Made by a program: the position numbers and the translations under genes. The notes beneath the pieces are model-generated. The model did not search any database. It was not told the DNA's origin and worked only from the letters and a program-made list of their open reading frames with translations. Below are positions 1,433 through 12,534 of a DNA stretch of 21,183 bases, in pieces; position 1 is the first letter of the stretch, and each line of letters starts with the position of its first letter. The DNA lies in the IMG/VR virus record IMGVR_UViG_3300031707_005491, positions 1 to 21,183 of that record; one strand, written 5' to 3'. This DNA comes from a virus.

Positions 1433-2446
1433 ATGCAAAAGATTATCTTCATACCGAATCAAAAGTCGCCATGGGGTCAGCAACGGTGCACCGGTGCAGA
1501 CGGTAAATCATCTTATGAGATGATCGATCATTCTGATACAGTCGGCTCTTCACTAATGAGAGCTTGCGTTCCTTACGCATTTATGAAAGAACATTTTTCA
1601 GACAAAATACAAGTATGTTATAAAAGAACTCTTCCTGATGACGCCTCTGCGGGAGACATAGTCATTTTTGTTCGAGACTGCGATCATCCAGGTATACAAG
1701 AAGCAAAAAATCGAGGATGCATCACTGTATACGACAATATCGACGGATGCAAACAGTTCAATGCAAATGGAAAATTTGATATAATAATTGCAAATTCTGC
1801 AAAGCATGCTGAGATCTTGTCTAAACGTCACGAGATCGATTTGAAAAAGATTGTAATAATTGATATTCTGCACACAAATGTTAATAGAGAAAAAGTAAAA
1901 GCTCGGGCGCGCAATCAACAACCTGTTGTTGGTGCTGTCAATCCTGGCCCAAGTGCATTTCTGCGCACTGACATTTATGAAGACTTGGTACAGTTTTCAA
2001 AAAAGAATAAATTTGATCTCAAGAATGTCGACTACGAAAAGATACCGCTCAGCCTAGATGTTGAAAACATCAGAGTTAACAATCTATTCGAATGTTATGA
2101 TGGAATTCATATCGGATTATCACTTTTTGTTCAAGAGCATCTTAATTACGACAGGCTAAATGAGAAGCCATCAACGAAAGTAACCGGTTACTCGTCATAT
2201 GATATTCCAGTTGTATGTTCATACCAAAGAGCCTTTGACGATATTATCCAACGATTTCCTGATTTCAAGAATTATATTACGCAAGACATCGAACATGCAA
2301 AGTCAATTATCTTAAGACTTGTTCAAGACTACGACTACTACATGGAAAGTCGTTCACTGTTTCATGATATTGGCGAAATGTTTCACATGGATCATTCATA
2401 TGACAAGTATGTCACACAAATTAACAATGCAGCAAAGATGATGTAG
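1433..2446 (+). CDS. Glycosyltransferase-like protein (GT-B-like)
   Basis: This 337-aa protein starts at ATG 1433, one base after the stop of the previous methyltransferase. An upstream TTG at 1364 in the same frame lies inside the preceding gene and is unlikely to be used. A central stretch, GDIVIFVRD...DNIDG, followed by FDIIIANSAKHAEIL, looks like the N-terminal half of a GT-B fold. The later segment EKPSTKVTGYSSYDIPVVCS resembles the 'KP-nKl--aWaaG-PvI-s' signature of glycosyltransferases that act on surface polysaccharides. The usual E-x7-E motif of GT4 enzymes is not evident. The assignment rests on this signature and on the sugar-gene neighbours, so function and donor are inferred, not established. 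Confidence 0.45.
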   Translation: MQKIIFIPNQKSPWGQQRCTGADGKSSYEMIDHSDTVGSSLMRACVPYAFMKEHFSDKIQVCYKRTLPDDASAGDIVIFVRDCDHPGIQEAKNRGCITVYDNIDGCKQFNANGKFDIIIANSAKHAEILSKRHEIDLKKIVIIDILHTNVNREKVKARARNQQPVVGAVNPGPSAFLRTDIYEDLVQFSKKNKFDLKNVDYEKIPLSLDVENIRVNNLFECYDGIHIGLSLFVQEHLNYDRLNEKPSTKVTGYSSYDIPVVCSYQRAFDDIIQRFPDFKNYITQDIEHAKSIILRLVQDYDYYMESRSLFHDIGEMFHMDHSYDKYVTQINNAAKMM

Positions 2447-2459
2447 TGTTGTAATCATC

Positions 2460-3434
2460 ATGAAGAGCTCGATTGCAATAATTGGTTGTGGATTTGTTGG
2501 AGGATCACTTGCTTCTGTATTTGCAGAAAGAGATGCGACGGTTTTTACATATGATAAGATTGGTCGGCTTCCTATTGGAAGTTATAGAGGATCAATATGG
2601 CCGGGCCCAAGAGCACCAAAATCTATTACAGAACTAATTATAGCATGTGAAAATGTAGAATTCAACGGAATGATTGGGGGCGCGCCCGATACAAAACATT
2701 TTTCTGGTGTTTATTTTGTATGTGTTCCGACGCCAATGTATGAAGATGGATCTGCAGACATATCAATAGTCGATAGTGTTTTAACAGAAATGGCAAGTGT
2801 ACCTGGTGACAGAATTGCCGTAATAAAATCAACTGTTCCTCCCGGTTCTACAGATGCATGGAATAAAAAGTTTGAAGGAACTGGTCTGCGTGTTGTTTTC
2901 TCTCCAGAATTTTTAACAGAAGCTAATGCGTTAGATGACATGAGAAATCAGAATCGTATTATTCTCGGCGGTCCGAGGCCATGGATCAATAAAGTTAAAC
3001 AAATTTTTCAATCTACTTTTCCAAACGTTCCAATCATTAAGACTTCATCAACAAATGCAGAATGCATAAAATACTTCACGAATATTCAACTCGCTGCACG
3101 TGTAGTATTAAGCTGCGAATTTAAACAGGTTTGTGATGCATTAGATTCTAAAGGCCTTGATGTTGATTATGACAAGGTGCTTGAGTACGCAAAATACGAT
3201 CAACGTCTCGGCAACACACATATGAATGTACCTGGCAATGATGGTATATCAGGAGCGCGCGGACATTGTTTTCCAAAAGACCTTAACGCATTCATTGACA
3301 TTGCATCAAAAAATAATGTCAATCCCGCTGTAATGAAAGCAATATGGCAAAAAAATCTCGAGTTGATTCCATCTGAATATAGAGATTGGGAAAAAATGAC
3401 GGGTAGAGCTGTTTCAAAAAAGACAAGCAAATGA
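2460..3434 (+). CDS. UDP-glucose/GDP-mannose dehydrogenase family, short form
   Basis: This 324-aa protein is an NAD-dependent UDP-sugar 6-dehydrogenase relative, which would oxidise a nucleotide sugar to the uronic acid. The NAD-binding fingerprint IAIIGCGFVGGSLA lies at residues 5-18. The family segments CVPTPMYEDGSAD, IKSTVPPGST and FSPEFLTEANALDDM follow in order. The active-site lysine and asparagine are at K204 and N208 (ECIKYFTNIQLAARVV). The nucleophilic cysteine is C270 in GHCFPKD. Bacterial enzymes usually have about 400-450 residues, with roughly 140 after this cysteine. Here only 54 follow, so the C-terminal UDP-binding domain is missing. The catalytic residues are intact. Whether the short form is active alone or needs a partner is open. 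Confidence 0.85.
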   Translation: MKSSIAIIGCGFVGGSLASVFAERDATVFTYDKIGRLPIGSYRGSIWPGPRAPKSITELIIACENVEFNGMIGGAPDTKHFSGVYFVCVPTPMYEDGSADISIVDSVLTEMASVPGDRIAVIKSTVPPGSTDAWNKKFEGTGLRVVFSPEFLTEANALDDMRNQNRIILGGPRPWINKVKQIFQSTFPNVPIIKTSSTNAECIKYFTNIQLAARVVLSCEFKQVCDALDSKGLDVDYDKVLEYAKYDQRLGNTHMNVPGNDGISGARGHCFPKDLNAFIDIASKNNVNPAVMKAIWQKNLELIPSEYRDWEKMTGRAVSKKTSK

Positions 3435-4084
3435 AGAAATTGGAATCATTACAGAATATCGGTCTAAAACATAATACAGACAAAGCAGGCGGTCATTGTT
3501 TTTGTGATTTCTATGAATCTCATCTTGAACATATGCGATATGATCAGATTCGAATTCTTGAGATTGGCATTGATAATGGTCGTAGTCTAAAAATGTGGAA
3601 TGAGTTTTTCCCAAACGCGATTATTAATGCTGTTGATATAGCTTCAGAAAGCATTGAACTTGCAAAACAAATTCCTGGTGTGCATGAATTGTATAAAGCT
3701 GATATGGATTGTGTCAGCGTCGTAGAACGCCTTTCTAAGGAATTTGAATGGGATCTTATCGTAGATGATGGTGGTCATACAATGAGACAACAACAGCTGG
3801 CATTTAGATTCCTATGGCCCAAAGTCAAATCTGGCGGGTTTTTTATAATGGAAGATCTTCATACAAGCACAGATGCGCAGCGTATACCTACACACAATCA
3901 ATATCTAGATCCAACAACGTATGATATGATTGTCGCACTTAGAGACAACAAACCATTTGATAGCTTATATTTGCCTGCAGCTCTGCATAGTGAATATCAA
4001 AAGTCTATCAAGCATGTTGAAATTTTTCAAAAAGATCCAAGGAATTTGAACATTAGCGTAACTAGCATCATAAGAAAGCTGTAA
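3431..4084 (+). CDS. TylF/MycE-like class I SAM methyltransferase
   Basis: This 217-aa protein begins with LKHNTDKAGGHCFCDFYESH, like the 'TDK--H-Y---Y' entry motif of sugar O-methyltransferases related to MycE, TylF and CmcI. SAM-binding motif I is LEIGIDNGRSLKMW (residues 43-56). The metal/catalytic VDDGGH is at 111-116, and GGFFIMEDLHTS is at 135-146. These enzymes use SAM, often with a divalent metal, to O-methylate a sugar hydroxyl. The ATG overlaps the stop of the dehydrogenase gene (ATGA at 3431-3434), so the two are probably coupled. This is the third methyltransferase in the cassette and implies a multiply methylated glycan; the acceptor is inferred. Confidence 0.78.
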   Translation: MKKLESLQNIGLKHNTDKAGGHCFCDFYESHLEHMRYDQIRILEIGIDNGRSLKMWNEFFPNAIINAVDIASESIELAKQIPGVHELYKADMDCVSVVERLSKEFEWDLIVDDGGHTMRQQQLAFRFLWPKVKSGGFFIMEDLHTSTDAQRIPTHNQYLDPTTYDMIVALRDNKPFDSLYLPAALHSEYQKSIKHVEIFQKDPRNLNISVTSIIRKL

Positions 4085-4103
4085 TTTGAACTGATGTGCA
4101 TGA

Positions 4104-4125
4104 GCATGTTATTATTGGAACATGC
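4104..4125 (+). promoter_or_regulatory. Hairpin covering the nuclease start codon
   Basis: GCATGTT (4104-4110) and AACATGC (4119-4125) are a perfect 7-bp inverted repeat with an 8-nt loop (ATTATTGG). The right arm contains the ATG of the nuclease gene at 4122. In RNA, this stem would hide the start codon and lower translation unless unfolded or unless transcription starts inside it. It lacks a U tract, so it is not an obvious terminator. The regulatory role is inference. Confidence 0.4.
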
Positions 4126-4937
4126 CCGAGCAGACAGAATTTCAACTACTCCCAACTGGGAAACCTCACGTCTCATTCTCTGAAGTCAAGCTTTGGAAAG
4201 AATGTTCATACCGTCATTTCCTAACTCACGTCAAGAAGATAAGCATTTTTAAGCCATCGCCAGTTCTTGCATTTGGTACTGCAATTCATTCTGCTGCTGA
4301 AAAATATCTTCTCACACGAGAAATGAATCAACAGGTTTGTTTTGATATACTTGACAAATCATGGGTTGAAAATAACACAAACGAAGATTTCACTCCCAAG
4401 GCACTGATCGAAGCAAAAGAAGCTGCAACATTAATTCTATCAGAGTTCCCAGCTTTCTTCGATAAACAATTCCCAGGTTGGGAAATTGTTGATGCAGAAC
4501 ATCAACTCTATGAGAACATTGAAGGTCATAAAAATGCTTTCAAGGGATTCATAGATGGTGTTATCAAAGTCAAAGGTAAAAATGGTGAGGACATATATTG
4601 GGTGCTTGATCACAAGACTAGTGCACGTGGTTGGTTTCGTGATAAGCGCTCTGATGATATGATTAAGTCTCAGCTAGCACTCTATAAAAATTATTGGTGC
4701 CAGAAGAATCCTACAGTTCCATTCAAGGATGTTCGATGTGGCTTTGTGATTCTCAAAAAGAAAGCTCCCGTAGGCGATCATTGTGAATTATTTACAGTTT
4801 CTCTTGGCGATGTTCCAATCAAGCGGGCACTTAAAGTTGTAAGTAACATGATTACATCAGTGAAAAAGGGTGTAAATATCAAAAATAGAGATTCGTGTAA
4901 GTGGTGTGAATTTCACAAGACAGAACATTGTATTTGA
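4122..4937 (+). CDS. PD-(D/E)XK nuclease, Cas4/AddB-type with likely Fe-S cluster
   Basis: This 271-aa protein has the RecB-family nuclease motifs in order: H56 in AFGTAIHSAAE, D145 in GFIDGVI, D163-x-K165 in VLDHKTSA, and Q184...Y188 in QLALYKNYW. Four cysteines are placed as in Cas4, AddB and Dna2: C28 near the N-terminus (WKECSYRHF), and C259, C262 and C270 at the extreme C-terminus (CKWCEFHKTEHC). In those families one N-terminal and three C-terminal cysteines hold a 4Fe-4S cluster. It probably cuts or trims DNA ends in phage replication or recombination. It is not evidence for CRISPR, since no cas1, cas2 or repeat array is nearby. A 7-bp hairpin covers its start codon. Confidence 0.85.
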   Translation: MPEQTEFQLLPTGKPHVSFSEVKLWKECSYRHFLTHVKKISIFKPSPVLAFGTAIHSAAEKYLLTREMNQQVCFDILDKSWVENNTNEDFTPKALIEAKEAATLILSEFPAFFDKQFPGWEIVDAEHQLYENIEGHKNAFKGFIDGVIKVKGKNGEDIYWVLDHKTSARGWFRDKRSDDMIKSQLALYKNYWCQKNPTVPFKDVRCGFVILKKKAPVGDHCELFTVSLGDVPIKRALKVVSNMITSVKKGVNIKNRDSCKWCEFHKTEHCI

Positions 4938-4967
4938 AAAAGAAAAGAAACGATTGAATCTCTTGGG

Positions 4968-4975
4968 TATATAAT
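4968..4975 (+). promoter_or_regulatory. Candidate late-type promoter, TATATAAT
   Basis: TATATAAT lies in the gap after the nuclease gene. It matches the pattern TATATNAT also seen before the genes at 8869 and 12564. No -35 hexamer sits at a 17-base spacing, which would suit a gp55-type late promoter that uses only a -10-like octamer. In AT-rich DNA such matches arise by chance, so this is tentative. Confidence 0.25.
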
Positions 4976-5060
4976 GATTGAGATATGGGAAACAGAATTC
5001 AAGTCAAAAAAGTGGTTAACAAAAATCGATTATTTAATGGAGTGCACAAAGCATGAATAA
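4974..5060 (+). CDS. Putative 28-aa small protein
   Basis: A short frame from ATG 4974 to TAA 5058-5060 encodes MIEIWETEFKSKKWLTKIDY followed by LMECTKHE. Its end overlaps the first codons of the split glycosyltransferase (ATGAATAA at 5053-5060), the coupling style used throughout this window. The residue mix, with two tryptophans and alternating charges, looks protein-like. No good Shine-Dalgarno sequence is visible and the family is unknown. If it is translated, it may mainly serve to bring ribosomes to the 13-codon exon behind it. It could equally be chance. Confidence 0.35.
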   Translation: MIEIWETEFKSKKWLTKIDYLMECTKHE

Positions 5061-6568
5061 AAAAACAATCCTGATGCTATCAGATCATCCGTGAACAACT
5101 ACAGCTCAGCGGATGTAAAACTGGGTGAATTGCTGGGAAGTCGTGGGACAACACCACAGCGTGGCTGGAAACGGCGAGCGCGACGGTCTAAAAAGTTTTA
5201 CTTTACGATAATCAGCAGCCTAGCTCCTGTAAAGAAATTTTGGAGAAGGTTCAGAGACTACGGTCAGTCTAAGTCTATAAATTTGTAGATACGACAATGA
5301 TCCGACAGCGCCCAGCACTAACTAGTGATGATATAGTCCAACAAATGAATTTTTATGAAGTGAGCACTTCTGGCGTAGGGACTCAAGCAAGGTGGTTAAT
5401 CAGCGGTCTTATTGCAACGGGTAAATACACGTTCCGTTGTTTCGGTGGTGCAATTCGTCATGATAGCTATGAAACAATTGCAGTAAACCCAGACTTCATA
5501 ATCAAACCAACGAATGGTTTTGGCGATAAAGCTTTACTTCGAAAGACAATTGCCCAAGTAAGACCAGATGCTTTGTTGCTGTTTACCGATCCTCGATTTT
5601 TCACATATTTATTTGAGATGGAAGATGAAATTCATCAAATCTGTCCAATTTCATATTGGCATCTTTGGGATAATCTTCCTTGGCCCGAATTCAACAGGCC
5701 AATTTATGAAGCTTCTGATCTAATAAATTGCATTAACAAGCCGACTTATGAGATGGTTAAGGAACGTTTTCCAGAGAAGACAAATTACATTCCGCATGCA
5801 GTTCCAAAAGATCTTTACTATCCACTTTCAAAAGAGGAAATTGGTAAATTCAAATTGTCATTGCTTGGTCCCGAAAGAAGTGATCATTTTACGTGTCTCT
5901 TCGTTTCCAGAAATGCAAGACGAAAGATGCCGTCTGACATTCTAATGTCATGGAAGCTTTTTCTTGACGAACTTGAAAAGAACTTTGGTCATCGAAAAGC
6001 AACGCTCATTATGCATACTGATCCGCTCGATCAAGAGGGAACAAATCTTTATCAGCTTGTCGATTTATTTGATCTGAAAAATAATGTGATGTTTTCAAGA
6101 GAACGAATAGACTTCAATGAAATGAGGTCACTGTACAGTGTATGCGATACGATCGTAAATCGAAGCTGTGCAGAAGGATTTGGTCTACCAACGCTAGAAG
6201 CAATGATGTGCGGTAAACCTATTATTGCAATAAAGACAGGTGGTCTTACAAATCAGGTTGAAGATTCAATTACAAAAGAACAATTTGGTATTGCAATAGA
6301 ACCAGAAGTAAAGACACTTATGGGAAATCATCAAGTTCCGTTCATTGCTGAAGATTATATCTCACATGAGACGCTGATGAAGGCATTCATGCAGATGTAC
6401 AAGCTTACGCCAGAAGAAAGAGAAATTATGGGTCACCGAGCCATGGCTCGCGCGCGGTCAGAATATAACATTGACAAAGTAATCTCAGACTGGGACACGT
6501 CATTAGCTAAACTAATAGACGAGTGGCCGAGCAAAAAGCCAGATCAGTGGAAGATGATAACACTATGA
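5053..6568 (+). CDS. GT4-family glycosyltransferase, split by a group I intron: join(5053..5092, 5361..6568)
   Basis: Exon 1 (5053-5092) encodes MNKKTILMLSDHP plus the first base of codon 14. Exon 2 (5361-6568) supplies TG and the rest. The joined codon is TTG (Leu), giving SDHPLSTSGVGTQ, the expected first strand and donor-site loop of this enzyme type, and a 415-aa protein. The C-terminal GT-B half carries VSRNARRKMPSD and the E-x7-E motif as E285 and E293 in AEGFGLPTLEAM, typical of retaining GT4 enzymes that transfer a sugar from a nucleotide donor. Unspliced RNA stops at TGA 5092-5094 after 13 codons. A frame starting at ATG 5297 exists but would replace the first strand with 21 intron-encoded residues. 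The stop overlaps the ATG of the next glycosyltransferase (6565). Donor and acceptor are unknown. Confidence 0.88.
5093..5360 (+). ncRNA. Group I self-splicing intron (T4-like, probably IA2), no endonuclease ORF
   Basis: All core elements are visible. P1: exon CATCCGT (5086-5092) pairs with GCGGATG (5109-5115), with U5092.G5109 at the splice site. P10: TGAGC (5361-5365) pairs with GCTCA (5104-5108). P3: CTGGGTG (5121-5127) with CGCCCAG (5309-5315). P-element AATTGCTGGGAA (5128-5139) and Q-element AATCAGCAGCCTAGC (5210-5224) form P4 (TGCTG 5131-5135 with CAGCA 5213-5217). P6: CC 5219-5220 with GG 5248-5249, plus CTCC/GGAG. R-element GGTTCAGAGACTA (5248-5260) and S-element GATATAGTCC (5330-5339) form P7 (GACTA/TAGTC). 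P8 is 5316-5327. P5 hairpins fill 5140-5209. A 5261-5304 stem matches the P7.1/P7.2 insertion of IA introns. The last base is G5360, as required. P9 is minimal. Self-splicing is inferred from structure. Confidence 0.93.
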
Positions 6569-8030: not shown

Positions 8031-8857
8031 CAAAAAAAATCAAGTCGCCACTTCCATTGCAATCACATCAAATTGAGAAAACGAAAAAGAAAACTCGAAA
8101 GCCGCGAACACCAAAGGCTGCAGTAGAAACTCAGACAATTGTTGATGGAGTAGTAGTCGTTACAAAGCCTGCTCCAAATCCAAAACTTTATTTCAATTCA
8201 GGCACACAGGATGCAATAGTAGAGTTCCAGTCTGAGGAATTAAAGAAAGCAAGAGATGCACTTTACGTTAGTTCAATCATGCCGGCATTTGAAAAGCTAG
8301 TAGAAAATCTAATCAACATACACAAGTTCGCAGGCATGCATGACACGTATGAAGAGCTAAAGAATGATTGTGTCAATTTTCTATTTGAAACAATTCATAA
8401 ATTTGATGCTGCAAGAGGAACAAATGCTTTTTCATACTTCAACGTTGTTGCAAAAAATTGGTTGATAATAAAGACAAAACAAAGATTACAGAGAGCAAGA
8501 AGAAGTGTTTCGCTTGACGATCCTACTTCATTATCTGCACACGAGATGCTGGCAGTTGAAGAACACAACATCATCCCGCCACAAGATGCCATATTGGACA
8601 ATGCTGACACTTCAATTGCAACGATCAGTATGTTATATGAGATCAGATCAAAAGCAAAGTCTGAGAATGAGCTAACTTGCATTAATGCAATCATCACTAT
8701 ATTTGAAAACATAGATGAAATTGATTTACTCAACAAGGGTGCAGTGTTGTTATACATGCGAGAGTTATCAGGTTTAACACCAAAACAATTGACAACTGCG
8801 ATGCAGTCAATCAAGCGTCACTACAAAAAAACGAAATTCATATTTTGTGATGACTGA
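8027..8857 (+). CDS. 55: Late-transcription RNA polymerase sigma factor, T4 gp55-like
   Basis: This 276-aa protein matches T4-type late sigma factors, which direct host RNA polymerase to short late promoters together with the sliding clamp. The signature is in the region 2-like part: LKNDCVNFLFETIHKFDAARGTNAFSYFNVVAKNWLI, of which FSYFNVVAKNWLI spans residues 135-147, followed by a basic KTKQRLQRARRSVS. The first 50 or so residues are a lysine/proline-rich extension (KKTRKPRTPK at 21-30) absent from T4 gp55, which has 185 residues. A GAGGA Shine-Dalgarno sequence (8016-8020) precedes the ATG by 6 bases, and the gene overlaps its upstream neighbour. Its place just before the baseplate genes fits a role in switching these on late. 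Confidence 0.83.
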   Translation: MTKKIKSPLPLQSHQIEKTKKKTRKPRTPKAAVETQTIVDGVVVVTKPAPNPKLYFNSGTQDAIVEFQSEELKKARDALYVSSIMPAFEKLVENLINIHKFAGMHDTYEELKNDCVNFLFETIHKFDAARGTNAFSYFNVVAKNWLIIKTKQRLQRARRSVSLDDPTSLSAHEMLAVEEHNIIPPQDAILDNADTSIATISMLYEIRSKAKSENELTCINAIITIFENIDEIDLLNKGAVLLYMRELSGLTPKQLTTAMQSIKRHYKKTKFIFCDD

Positions 8858-8865
8858 TATATCAT
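8858..8865 (+). promoter_or_regulatory. Candidate late promoter, TATATCAT
   Basis: TATATCAT begins 11 bases before the ATG at 8869. The preceding bases are CTGA, giving CTGATATAT (8854-8862), which also occurs before the gp25-like gene. T4 late promoters are a lone TATAAATA-like octamer, so this is a plausible variant, but the match is short and partly overlaps the end of the sigma gene. Confidence 0.3.
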
Positions 8866-8868
8866 TCC

Positions 8869-9231
8869 ATGTCTAATAAGATTTCAAACAATACATTGCA
8901 GATAGAAGCAAAGATCAAGGCTTTTTCTGATCTGCTTTCTCAAATCGATAGTGTACCCGACAAAAAACAAAAGCTATGGAAAGAAATCTATGAAAATGCC
9001 GTGACAGATCGACAGAATTCTTATGAGCTTTTTATGCAGCTTACTGAAATAGTCAAAGACAAAAGTACAGAACATGCAGTTCATGGCAAATCTTTGTCAT
9101 CATATATTGAACGAATGAGTAAAGCAAATGATCAGATAATCAGACTCGCGGAGCTTATATCAAAGGCAGAATCACCTACAGCATCAATTGACCCAGAAGA
9201 CATGTTTAACAAGATCAGAAATCAGAAATAA
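8869..9231 (+). CDS. Small helical hypothetical protein
   Basis: This 120-aa protein is mostly charged and appears alpha-helical throughout, with no cysteine, signal peptide or membrane segment. Segments such as QIEAKIKAFSDLLSQID, YELFMQLTEIVKD and ANDQIIRLAELISKAE look like amphipathic helices or a short coiled coil. The C-terminus SIDPEDMFNKIRNQK is acidic then basic. It sits between the late sigma factor and the hub-like protein. A late-transcription accessory such as T4 gp33 (112 aa) is possible by size and neighbourhood, but no gp33-specific motif is visible, so I do not name it. It could also be a tail assembly chaperone. It is separated from the next gene by only three bases. Confidence 0.7.
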   Translation: MSNKISNNTLQIEAKIKAFSDLLSQIDSVPDKKQKLWKEIYENAVTDRQNSYELFMQLTEIVKDKSTEHAVHGKSLSSYIERMSKANDQIIRLAELISKAESPTASIDPEDMFNKIRNQK

Positions 9232-9234
9232 TAC

Positions 9235-10743
9235 ATGCCTAACAACACTAGCGACAATATGCGTGATTTTGCTGAAGGCAGAAGCAATTCTTCAATAACG
9301 CAAAGTAAACATCGAGAACCAGAAAAATCTCAATTCTTAAGAATGATTGTTCTTGAAGTCATTTCAGATCCAAATTATGATCTAACTGACGAAAAAAAGA
9401 AAGCAAGATGGCAAGGTCTTGGCGTCTCAAATATGACGTATGCAGACATATTGCCAAGAAATTCAATCATTGCAAGAAAAATGAGTTCAGACGAACCGCC
9501 AATGTTTGTCTTTCCTTTCTTTGCATCACATCTTTCGTTGCCATGCAAACCAGGCGAATGTCTTTGGGTGATGATAGAAAATCCCGCCGGACACTCAGAT
9601 GCTGCATTTTGGATGACACGCATAATTGAACCACATCTTTCAGATGATGTTAATCATTCACATCCAGGCAGATCTTTTGAAGTCACAATGAATCCTGACA
9701 CTGTAAAGATTGCAGAAAATGAAAAATCTGGAAAAGCAGAGTCAGGAGAAGATGTATGGCATGAACTTCGTAATGGACCTGTTGTTAATGTAAATGATGA
9801 CAGAACAACTGCCTATGAAGGATCATTGCTTAGAGGTGAACCAGAAGATATCTTCGAACGTCTTATTACAGAATCAGATGCTTCAAAATTGATGTCATTT
9901 GAACCAGTCGCAAGATTTCGAAAGCGACCAGGCGATATCGCATTCGAGGGTTCAAATAATTCTCTCATTGTTTTAGGAACTGATCGTGAAAGTTCAATTG
10001 CTGCTTATAATGATCCTGTCACAGAATTAGAAAAATCACTTTGGACTAAAACTACATCATATCCTGAATCTGATTTTCTTAATGATGCCGGCACAATTGA
10101 TATTGTAGTAGGAAGAGGACAAACAGAAGCTACATTTGGAAAGTCTGCATCTACGACTAGTATACGCGATGCCAAAGGCAAGACAAAAGGGACTAGCATA
10201 AAGAAGGAACTAAATAAATCGCCTGCGATTATTTCTGCATCAGAAGGCGATCCTGACTATGTAAATGACAGAAGTCGCATACTTGTTTCACAACGGACTA
10301 GAGTTGATAGAAACTTTGATCTTACTTCTTACAATACAACAATAGATGAGAAGATGTCAGATTCTATTACTGGTGATGCTGCAATTGTAATCAAGACGGA
10401 CAAGGTACGTCTCATTGCAAGAAATGATGTTCAATTTCTTGTTACAAATTTTACTGCAGGAAAAACACCAGATGGTGCACCCATTGCAATTGATGAATCA
10501 GATGCATCAAAGTGGGCATCAATTACAATCATGAATGGAGATATTATTTTCAAGCCTAGCCAAGAAGGGTATATCAAGTTAGGCAGTGAAAATGCAGATA
10601 AGGCACTACTTTGTACAGATAAACCAGCAAAACCTGTTTTAGGCACAGTACATGCTAGTCCAATTACCGATACATCTGTTGGATTTATTGGAACGTCTGC
10701 ACCAGGACAAGGTACATGGGCAAAAAAGATTCTTGTAGATTAG
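9235..10743 (+). CDS. Baseplate hub/central spike-like protein with OB-fold
   Basis: This 502-aa protein looks like the gp5/VgrG-type spike component at the tail tip. Residues about 31-130 suggest an OB-like beta barrel, ending in CKPGECLWVMIEN...AAFWMTRI. The segment at about 226-250, RPGDIAFEGSNNSLIVLGTDR, resembles the 'GD-i-EGr-gn-IrfGs' stretch seen in T4-type hub proteins. The C-terminal part is beta-rich and ends with a KLGSENADKALLCTD-type repeat like that of spike tips in marine T4-like phages. No lysozyme domain is visible; the next gene may provide the cell-wall-cleaving function. It is followed by that gene after 18 bases. The domain-level call is likely, the precise T4 counterpart uncertain. 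Confidence 0.6.
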   Translation: MPNNTSDNMRDFAEGRSNSSITQSKHREPEKSQFLRMIVLEVISDPNYDLTDEKKKARWQGLGVSNMTYADILPRNSIIARKMSSDEPPMFVFPFFASHLSLPCKPGECLWVMIENPAGHSDAAFWMTRIIEPHLSDDVNHSHPGRSFEVTMNPDTVKIAENEKSGKAESGEDVWHELRNGPVVNVNDDRTTAYEGSLLRGEPEDIFERLITESDASKLMSFEPVARFRKRPGDIAFEGSNNSLIVLGTDRESSIAAYNDPVTELEKSLWTKTTSYPESDFLNDAGTIDIVVGRGQTEATFGKSASTTSIRDAKGKTKGTSIKKELNKSPAIISASEGDPDYVNDRSRILVSQRTRVDRNFDLTSYNTTIDEKMSDSITGDAAIVIKTDKVRLIARNDVQFLVTNFTAGKTPDGAPIAIDESDASKWASITIMNGDIIFKPSQEGYIKLGSENADKALLCTDKPAKPVLGTVHASPITDTSVGFIGTSAPGQGTWAKKILVD

Positions 10744-10761: not shown

Positions 10762-12534
10762 ATGGCAGATCCTCCTCATGCACAAGTTGCAGCAAATGTT
10801 CTAGAAGACAAAAATGGAAATCTTGTTATCACAGATGTAGCTCGTGCAGTATTTGTAAAACGAACAAAAGATGCATTGATCAATGGAGAACTAGGCTTAC
10901 CATTTCCTTGTGGAGAAAAACTTCAGACATTAGATGCAGCAAAAGATCTAGATCTTGATGATCGTGACAAATTTCCTGATTTTCATAATTTCTGGATAGA
11001 TGGCTTATATACCGGCATTGCAAAAGCTATCAATACTGTACCATCTCAATTTATGATACCCATATTTGATCCGCTAGCGTTGGCAATCGCGCTTAAATTA
11101 CCAGCACCAAAATTAAGCTTTCCTTCTGTGACAATGAGCTTAGCAGCACCAATTCCACTTGCATTGAAATTAATTGGAATCAAGCCGCTAGATTTACCGC
11201 TAAAAATCCCAGAAATGCTTAAGCTTATCAATATTGAACCGCCAAAAATTCCTGCGCTAGATATCAAATTCCCAGACATAAATTTGGTATATCCGTGGGG
11301 TGCATTTCAAATACAAGCAATGCTTAATTTGGCAATTCCGCTTGGATTTGCCAAATTACTTTTGAATCTAGCTACACCTTCATTTTGGGCACCACTTTCT
11401 TTTCCAGCTTTGTTTGAACTTGGTTGTAAAACATTTACAGACTCAATATCAGCACCATTTTCAACAGCAACTGATGCAGATGGAGAAACTGTTACACCAC
11501 CGCTCACAGGGCTAGCAGCAGCAAGAGCACTGGCGTCTGTAACATCAGATTGTGCAATTTTTGCAGCAACTGGGTGTGTCGTAGGTGCAGGATTCATAGT
11601 TCAAAAAGAAGCAGAAATGCAAGGTTACGTGCCTCGAGCAGCAAAAGAAGATACAACACTTATAGCAGAAGGTGCAATGAACGGTCTATCAGCTTTTGAA
11701 CCTGATGAGACTACTGATGGAGCACGTTGGGTATTTAGAGATAGCACAAGAAATACTTTTTTTGGTGATCCTTTTGTTGTTGACTACCTTTATGAACTAA
11801 GCGCACATATGAAAACAAAATCAACAACTTTTGAAGTTCCTGATTATATTGTTGAAGTTGGAAATATTACTGGCAAAGATGATGATCACGGATGGAGATG
11901 GTCGAAGTGGTCAACAAAAAGATCGAATGGAAAGATTATTTCATCTCATTTTGGAAGTGCATTCGATTTTGCATATCCGTTAAGATCAGGTAATTCAAGA
12001 ATTTCGGGAATGAATCCTAAAGCAAAGGCCATTACAGGCGAAGCAGAAGGCGCACCAGGAACATCTCCATACCTACCAAGTCCTTTATCTCCTCTCAAGG
12101 CTGAAAAATATGACTTTGAAGTAATGCATGAGATTTTTACATGGTCAATAAGTCATGTTAGAGAACTGATATCTTCAAACAAGATAACACCAAAAAATAT
12201 TTATGCAAAACATAATCTTGTTGTTGGTGACGTATTTATTTCTGTCACGCTTGGTGAACAAGTATTTTCTTTTTATAAAGACTGGCTAAAGACAAATGGA
12301 AAAAGTCTTCCTTCTGGTCCAATTTGGGATCCAAATAAAGTGCATGAAGATCATTTGCATTTTAGATTTGCTCGAACACGCTCTGATTCAGGCAATCCAG
12401 AAAGTCCCAATCAAGATATACGTTATTTAATTCCTTGGCGCATCGAAGGAAAATATCCAAATGATAGAGGAATAGAAGAAGCAAAATCGCCACCTAACCC
12501 AGAAGATGGATCAACAATTACTGTTGTTGTCTAA
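10762..12534 (+). CDS. Baseplate-associated protein with C-terminal murein endopeptidase-like domain
   Basis: This 590-aa protein has two parts. The N-terminal 270 residues are hydrophobic, with repeated proline-leucine/isoleucine motifs (for example IKPLDLPLKIPEMLKLINIE) spanning about 100-200. The C-terminal part has zinc-peptidase-like motifs: SSHFGSAFDF with H396 and D402, and HEDHLHFRF with H531 and H533, close to the HxDH-H ligands of MepA (M74) and LAS peptidases. These enzymes cut peptide cross-links in peptidoglycan. The H-to-D spacing is six residues instead of the usual seven, so activity is not assured. The gene lies between the hub and gp25. The likely role is to open the cell wall during DNA injection. 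The function of the hydrophobic part is unknown; it may be an assembly scaffold or membrane-facing region. Confidence 0.65.
   Translation: MADPPHAQVAANVLEDKNGNLVITDVARAVFVKRTKDALINGELGLPFPCGEKLQTLDAAKDLDLDDRDKFPDFHNFWIDGLYTGIAKAINTVPSQFMIPIFDPLALAIALKLPAPKLSFPSVTMSLAAPIPLALKLIGIKPLDLPLKIPEMLKLINIEPPKIPALDIKFPDINLVYPWGAFQIQAMLNLAIPLGFAKLLLNLATPSFWAPLSFPALFELGCKTFTDSISAPFSTATDADGETVTPPLTGLAAARALASVTSDCAIFAATGCVVGAGFIVQKEAEMQGYVPRAAKEDTTLIAEGAMNGLSAFEPDETTDGARWVFRDSTRNTFFGDPFVVDYLYELSAHMKTKSTTFEVPDYIVEVGNITGKDDDHGWRWSKWSTKRSNGKIISSHFGSAFDFAYPLRSGNSRISGMNPKAKAITGEAEGAPGTSPYLPSPLSPLKAEKYDFEVMHEIFTWSISHVRELISSNKITPKNIYAKHNLVVGDVFISVTLGEQVFSFYKDWLKTNGKSLPSGPIWDPNKVHEDHLHFRFARTRSDSGNPESPNQDIRYLIPWRIEGKYPNDRGIEEAKSPPNPEDGSTITVVV

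Follow-up and report, generated by a model that had tools for sequence, protein, structure and literature searches.

The stretch of DNA analyzed here (hereafter, the window) is a virus record of 21,183 bp from a tailed phage, in which a glycosyltransferase gene is split by a short group I intron (Table 1). The split gene is part of a glycan cassette, surrounded by genes for a methyltransferase, a UDP-sugar dehydrogenase, a PD-(D/E)XK nuclease and a second glycosyltransferase, and the cassette stands upstream of late-sigma-like and baseplate-wedge-like genes. A PD-(D/E)XK C-terminal motif matching that of the preceding gene was also found at most 350 nt upstream of the homologous gene in 45 of 72 intronless clusters.

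Table 1. Features of the split glycosyltransferase locus in the window (top) and intein-like insertions in two relatives (last two lines, numbered within L106 and L293).
Feature	Position	Strand	Basis
PD-(D/E)XK nuclease gene, precedes the glycosyltransferase gene	4122..4937	+	PF12705, 64.1 bits
Degraded 3' end of a Vsr-fold homing endonuclease gene (KRKETIESLGYIMIEIWETEFK...), lying outside the intron	4938-5057	+	tblastn with the L009 endonuclease
Exon 1 of the glycosyltransferase gene: MNKKTILMLSDHP plus the first base of Leu codon 14	5053..5092	+	ORF rebuilt on joining exon 2; N-terminus like that of intronless homologues
Group I intron without ORF, 268 nt, U before, G last	5093..5360	+	RF00028, 62 bits; covariation over six distinct introns
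P1	CAUCCGU 5086-5092 / GCGGAUG 5109-5115	+	last pair U.G at the 5' splice site; invariant in 6/6 distinct introns
P10 guide	GCUCA 5104-5108, pairs with 3' exon UGAGC 5361-5365	+	two-sided change in relatives
P3, 7 bp	5121-5127/5309-5315	+	two-sided changes
P4	5131-5136/5212-5217	+	invariant
P5	5141-5145/5204-5208	+	two-sided changes; one pair open in 2 rows
P6	5218-5220/5248-5250	+	two-sided change, from one row
P6a	5224-5227/5242-5245	+	two-sided change, from one row; one pair open in 1 row
P7	5256-5260/5334-5338	+	invariant
P8	5316-5320/5323-5327	+	3 pairs with two-sided changes
P7.1/P7.2-like helices	between P7 and P3	+	RNAalifold
Exon 2 of the glycosyltransferase gene	5361..6568	+	PF00534, 47.6 bits
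Intein-like insertion of L106, with LAGLIDADG	8453-9601	-	NEGFGL motif
Homologous insertion of L293, same place, without intron	within 1811-4192		

An earlier note on this DNA had proposed a group I intron with exact ends and named helices, hosted by a glycosyltransferase gene, and these proposals held. A cmscan of the whole window gave a sole Rfam match, to the group I intron model RF00028 (5026-5357, + strand, E 8.6e-14), scoring 62 bits where the gathering cut-off is 50. In the Rfam alignment P1 comes out upstream of where the 5' splice site really is, so the intron ends were taken from comparison instead, with G5360 as the last intron base, and the helices in the window were verified by script. 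The intron interrupts codon 14, and joining T5092 to T5361 restores the frame just as the note had claimed, yielding an ORF of 415 aa (MNKKTILMLSDHPLSTSGVGTQ...) with a single stop, at its end, while the unspliced mRNA holds an in-frame UGA (5092-5094) at the exon 1-intron junction. The rebuilt protein matches Pfam Glycos_transf_1 (PF00534) well above the cut-off of 26.4 bits as well as the PHROG 'glycosyltransferase', and we take it to be of the GT4 type. Sequence analysis thus confirms 5093-5360 as an ORF-less group I intron, the predicted splicing of which would rebuild the glycosyltransferase.

The host gene is common in viral contigs, with relatives in 219 viral stretches, 80 of which were kept for comparison. 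Relatives with 27-32% identity also occur in eight deposited phage records, including those of Flavobacterium phages immuto, Microcystis phage Mel-JY01 and Rhodothermus phage RM378, and the annotation of the glycosyltransferase stretch, inspected in three deposited phages, contains no intron. The annotation of Microcystis phage Mel-JY01 (PP395634.1, 83441-84932) divides the homologous glycosyltransferase between two adjacent ORFs, which may represent a frameshift or a split gene. A genome scan of bacteria and archaea gave 28 contigs with relatives, two at 47-49% identity and 26 weak or short. In the 80 kept loci, the N-terminal motif (S/C/A)DH(P/A)(L/M)xxSGV is contiguous with exon 2 in 77, and the three in which it is not (L003, L009 and L028) all bear an intron.

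The same insertion position is occupied in eight records including the window (the others being L003, L009, L028, L100, L101, L104 and L106), which represent six distinct introns of 255-287 nt. L003 is a second record of the window sequence, from the same or another sample, with none of its mismatches lying in the intron. RF00028 scored 63-94 bits at the same-site loci of L009, L028, L100, L101, L104 and L106; among the 80 whole records it exceeded the cut-off in L003, L009, L028 and L056 (in the latter, elsewhere in the record). Weaker matches, under the cut-off, came from G024 and G072. A scan with the guide and P3-P4 sequence identified eight contigs, seven at the glycosyltransferase gene and one (L103) in another gene.

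These introns, whose aligned bases diverge by as much as about 24%, were aligned in seven rows (six distinct introns) and examined for covariation. Standard pairs occupy 98.9% of 282 cells (P1, P3-P8, P6a and P10), and sliding the helix partners by 1-3 columns lowers pairing to 31-44%. Two-sided changes occur in 10 of the 47 pairs, compared to 4.2 in shuffles, none of 500 of which reached 10; one of the five measures, the number of further pair types (14), was less informative, being reached by 40 of 500 shuffles. Compensatory changes were found in P3, P5, P6, P6a, P8 and P10; P1, P4 and P7 carry no covariation information because they are invariant. P10, which reads UGAGC/GCUCA in the window, reads UAAGC/GCUUA in L028 and L106 (C-G to U-A), altering in step on both sides, and the guide is therefore tied to the 3' exon. 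RNAalifold recovers the checked helices except P7 and P10, which are missing because they cannot be written alongside P3. It further predicts 11 pairs, five of them with two-sided changes, in a P7.1/P7.2-like region (columns 187-230); P7.1/P7.2 between P7 and P3 are the mark of subgroup IA, a possible assignment for this intron. The junction flanks read CATCCGT-T(G/A)AGC (the hyphen marking the junction) in all intron alleles and in 0 of 86 intronless sites, the exon 1 part occurring in one of these sites and the exon 2 part in seven, a conservation that fits guide pairing, co-conversion or both.

Two readings that would do away with a functional intron were weighed against these data. According to one, the glycosyltransferase needs no splicing, being translated from an ATG within the intron at 5297, whose frame runs through the 3' end of the intron into exon 2, and the intron-like RNA is a relic. 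The ORF 5297-6568 is open and encodes 423 aa, but the upstream frames hold stops in L009, L100, L101 and L106, the frame of L028 lacks an ATG and the intron helices are preserved with compensatory changes. The N-termini of the homologues, in line with the earlier note, match the spliced start (77 of 80 loci reading through the motif and the other three carrying the intron) and rule out 5297 as the true start, leaving this reading very improbable; annotating the gene from 5297 would be wrong. Even less probable is that the intron is an assembly chimera or an inactive insertion in a dead gene: the window is a metagenomic contig without an isolate, but L003 differs from it by only 5 mismatches over 12,565 shared bases, the junction is repeated in six further contigs, and exon 2 is open with low dN (0.10-0.23 in five comparisons involving an intron allele; 0.21 for the window against L004, a pair whose dS is outside the method's range).

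The earlier note regarded the intron as a stand-alone curiosity, an account that was incomplete in that it missed how common the host gene is in viral contigs, the presence of introns at this very position in related phages, and an endonuclease remnant just upstream, at 4938-5057. This remnant is 48.6% identical over 35 aa to the L009 endonuclease (tblastn with residues 1-303, E 2.6e-4) and scores 42.4 bits without composition correction, compared to at most 21.9 bits in 500 shuffles. It lacks the part matching the catalytic region of the L009 protein, and the window's own endonuclease cannot act. The 120 nt located 5' of exon 1 share 54-83% identity among the window, L009, L101 and L104 versus 39-52% with 12 intronless relatives, and the upstream DNA of L028 and L106 is dissimilar to that of the other intron alleles (43-50%).

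In L009 the corresponding ORF (618-1637) is uninterrupted, follows the PD-(D/E)XK gene and lies directly upstream of exon 1 (1528-1567), which it crosses in another frame before ending 70 nt inside the intron. It contains NUMOD3 (27.6 bits, cut-off 20.4), and its best PHROG match is phrog_22677, of unknown function (1.2e-17), followed by the endonuclease family phrog_13076 (9e-4). An AlphaFold model of the protein, built from a 7-row alignment, has a mean pLDDT of 63, with higher values over most of the nuclease domain (58-93 for ten-residue blocks of residues 191-300). Using VIA-align, the modelled nuclease domain was found to be most similar to Vsr (Z 11.6, rmsd 3.2, 117 residues), closely followed by I-Bth0305I (Z 11.5, rmsd 2.6, 94 residues; catalytic domain PDB 3r3p). 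As Toxoplasma mitoribosome chains score almost as high as Vsr (Z up to 11.1), the fold match alone is no proof of function. A PDB profile search returned three rows, all Vsr, at E about 0.03, and a Foldseek search with the model gave no match at E <= 0.001, the best being 1.3e-3. The model assigns L009 618-1637 the Vsr/I-Bth0305I fold (EDxHD class), and the protein is predicted to cleave DNA.

A scan of contigs with the L009 endonuclease returned L009 itself, one identical truncated contig and one distant relative, adjoining ORFs that we take to be helicase-like. The endonuclease copy of L106 has an internal stop and matches phrog_559 (9.3e-8), which carries the VSR endonuclease signature according to the available part of PMC11878797. 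L101, L104 and the window retain 3' parts only, and L028 has instead, just upstream, an ORF matching phrog_1035 'endonuclease VII' (8.8e-10), a type found in no other of the 98 sequences searched. The GIY-YIG, HNH_3 and LAGLIDADG_3 models, run on 18 records, miss the Vsr-like genes and, near the glycosyltransferase gene, match only the intein-like insertions of L106.

The association of intron and endonuclease was quantified using 88 intronless loci with a readable site, of which 79 had at least 600 nt upstream and formed 72 clusters at 95% identity. A Vsr-like gene or remnant was present in 5/5 distinct intron alleles, as opposed to 3/72 intronless clusters with one within 1.5 kb (Fisher p = 2.8e-6; the query comes from an intron allele and favours kin among intron alleles), and counting the Endo VII type of L028 brings the intron alleles to 6/6 (p = 3e-7; the 72 clusters were covered for the Vsr type, and searches with models of other endonuclease families covered 18 records). 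The three intronless clusters with a relative of the L009 endonuclease are those of L008 (with a damaged end), L071/L073 and L291. Because the last 37 residues of the endonuclease translate exon 1 and the intron, the search was repeated without them, and all five alleles still matched, the window with the E value given above. The locus has the layout of collaborative homing, namely an ORF-less intron with an endonuclease gene outside it and beside the host gene, the window itself having a remnant only.

A quick maximum-likelihood tree was built from 82 exon 2 proteins, without L101 (then a fragment) and the intronless kin of L028 (L268, L269 and L289). The intron state changes four times on this tree, all changes being forced by starred branches, and has intronless sisters in L004 (of the window), L010 and L011 (of L009) and L005 (of L100/L104); L106 sits on a long branch, probably because its row includes part of an insertion. 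Compared to shuffles (mean 6.8 changes; 0/500 as low as four), the intron shows stronger clustering, a pattern that would also be expected from vertical descent or near-copies. Among L009, L101 and L104, identity is 79-87% in the endonuclease tail, 82-100% in exon 1 and 85-91% in the intron, and 67-72% in the preceding gene and 63-78% in exon 2. The similarity of the tail is not due to selection on the endonuclease, since in L101 and L104 it belongs to dead genes. Exon 1 alone is weak evidence for a block, because that of intronless L011 is 88% identical to those of L009 and L104. In the window, where the sign of a block is weak, only exon 1 (75-85%) and the intron (83-87%) are raised in comparisons with the other alleles, and since its endonuclease remnant is only 60-66% identical to theirs, this copy may be old and inherited. 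The higher similarity of the intron than of the exons could partly reflect RNA constraint.

Based on these comparisons, we consider it likely that the intron spreads by collaborative homing with a Vsr-fold endonuclease encoded outside it, upstream of exon 1. The intron RNA would fold, an external guanosine would attack after U5092, and the exons would be joined at U5361 with the aid of P1 and P10, while in unspliced RNA ribosomes starting at 5053 would halt at the junction UGA. The endonuclease would cut intronless glycosyltransferase genes near the insertion site, and repair would copy a block comprising the endonuclease gene, exon 1 and the intron. After fixation, the endonuclease may decay (as in the window, L101, L104 and L106) while the harmless intron stays, or another endonuclease may take its place with the intron retained (L028, Endo VII-type). 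The main competing explanation is that the intron was inherited vertically within this phage group and lost repeatedly, no longer moves, and has the upstream endonuclease genes as chance neighbours. The divergence among the introns implies an old association, alleles with the intron cluster on the tree, the endonuclease remnant of the window is no more alike than the neighbouring genes, and a group I intron can be lost precisely, all of which agree with inheritance; however, the 6/6 against 3/72 association, the dead remnants of L101 and L104, 87% alike where the preceding gene and exon 2 are 63-70% alike, and the 40 nt of exon 1 identical between L009 and L104 make vertical descent an unlikely account of the whole.

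Under collaborative homing, the alleles may be read further as stages of one process. The natural states at the site include no element; endonuclease alone (L071, L291, and L008 with a damaged end); endonuclease and intron overlapping (L009); intron with a stopped endonuclease (L106); intron with a 3' remnant (the window, L101 and L104); and intron beside an endonuclease from a different family (L028). We lean, by a little, toward the broader view that every phase of collaborative homing, from beginning to end, is represented at this single site. Intron and endonuclease would then be independent parasites that converged on the same conserved motif and move jointly, and one endonuclease could be exchanged for another. 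Because several of the intermediates exist in nature as alleles of a single gene, the sequence of steps and the specificity of the enzyme are directly testable.

The intron resembles other ORF-less phage group I introns (RF00028) in its P3-P8 core, U.G pair in P1, terminal G, P10 and conserved host gene, and, among the matches listed, its core DNA resembles introns or intron-like stretches of Staphylococcus, Serratia, Vibrio, Flavobacterium and Bacillus phages (37-61% of the query). It differs in its host. Phage introns mostly sit in conserved protein genes, as stated in the accessible text of PMC3984707, and the hosts named in the portions available are DNA polymerase, terminase, thymidylate synthase and ribonucleotide reductase (PMC11878797) and td, nrdD, nrdB, helicase, lysis, capsid and tail genes (PMC3706429); the available part of the latter, which treats introns in capsid and tail genes, does not describe glycosyl transferase genes as intron-split. 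A literature search covering titles and opening abstracts found no phage group I intron in a glycosyltransferase gene, and likewise none together with an intein. The earlier note's view of the host as unusual therefore stands as far as reported phage introns go; at the same time, the gene is widespread in viral contigs, so that it is an ordinary kind of intron target and not a strange one. A carbohydrate gene can evidently be a target if conserved enough within a phage group.

The closest parallels are the collaborative homing systems, reported in T3-like phages, a cyanophage and the ICP1 terminase (PMC10448857, in part). In cyanophage S-PM2, the free-standing endonuclease gene of F-CphI lies beside the intron-bearing psbA, as at the present locus, and the Endo VII family of L028's neighbour is the motif class of F-CphI (PMC6083498, section available); here, by contrast, the host gene is another one, and the main endonuclease is Vsr-fold, predicted to cleave, with a frame overlapping exon 1 and the intron. 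At the ICP1 terminase locus the endonuclease gene similarly lies beside the N-terminal exon and outside the intron, but the enzyme there is of the T5orf172 type, whereas here it is Vsr-fold and several stages of decay and replacement are found at one site (PMC10448857, same part). I-Bth0305I shares the nuclease-domain fold of the L009 model, but the L009 gene is not inside an intron. A literature search for an endonuclease frame overlapping an upstream exon gave only a yeast paper. The window thus adds to known kinds, and what is new is a host gene not found reported and the unusually complete set of natural intermediates among relatives.

Besides its intron, the L106 glycosyltransferase gene carries an in-frame insertion of 383 aa at ISC/NEGFGL, with a homologue in the intronless L293 (Table 1). 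The NEGFGL motif is presumably part of the GT-B catalytic EX7E. The intein model PF14890 scored 26.4 and 31.2 bits (L106 and L293), below its cut-off of 35.8, and LAGLIDADG_3 scored 22.5 and 34.6 bits against a cut-off of 22.5. Both insertions begin with Cys but differ at their ends (HN-C in L106, SN-C in L293, the hyphen again marking the junction), and from these sequence features they appear intein-like. The long ORF of L012 (790 aa) was rejected as a further intein, being a fusion with the next glycosyltransferase. The neighbouring PD-(D/E)XK gene of L106 also seems to hold an intein-like insertion at about 11673-12392 (- strand; LAGLIDADG_3 match, ...THN-T in frame).

Further group I introns or intron-like sequences were encountered in other genes. 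L103 (3471-4020) contains an intron-like sequence, with an ORF inside, whose guide and P3-P4 are almost identical to those of the glycosyltransferase intron but which lies in a gene ending ...YEITGTNP; we take the gene to be ribonucleotide-reductase-like and the inner ORF to be LAGLIDADG-like. A second strong group I intron (87.8 bits) lies in the record of L101 (L265:826-1068, - strand; G082), adjoining an ORF that, we assume, encodes a tRNA-lysidine synthase. In Staphylococcus phage CF5 (L002:2412-3544), RF00028 matches four consecutive times within about 1.1 kb, and the annotation places an intron-encoded nuclease immediately downstream. In a 2014 review, the available text places all phage group I introns to date in protein genes (PMC3984707), and an interrupted phage tRNA-Stop has been reported and called a possible artefact (PMC5746245, as far as available). 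In the record of L056 (L093:791-1069; G054:C1:12290-12568), a group I intron (RF00028, 56.6 bits) seems to split the anticodon loop of a phage tRNA gene; removal of 826-1028 (U before, G last) would leave a 76-nt tRNA-Lys(UUU), ARAGORN with introns accepting many trial junctions.
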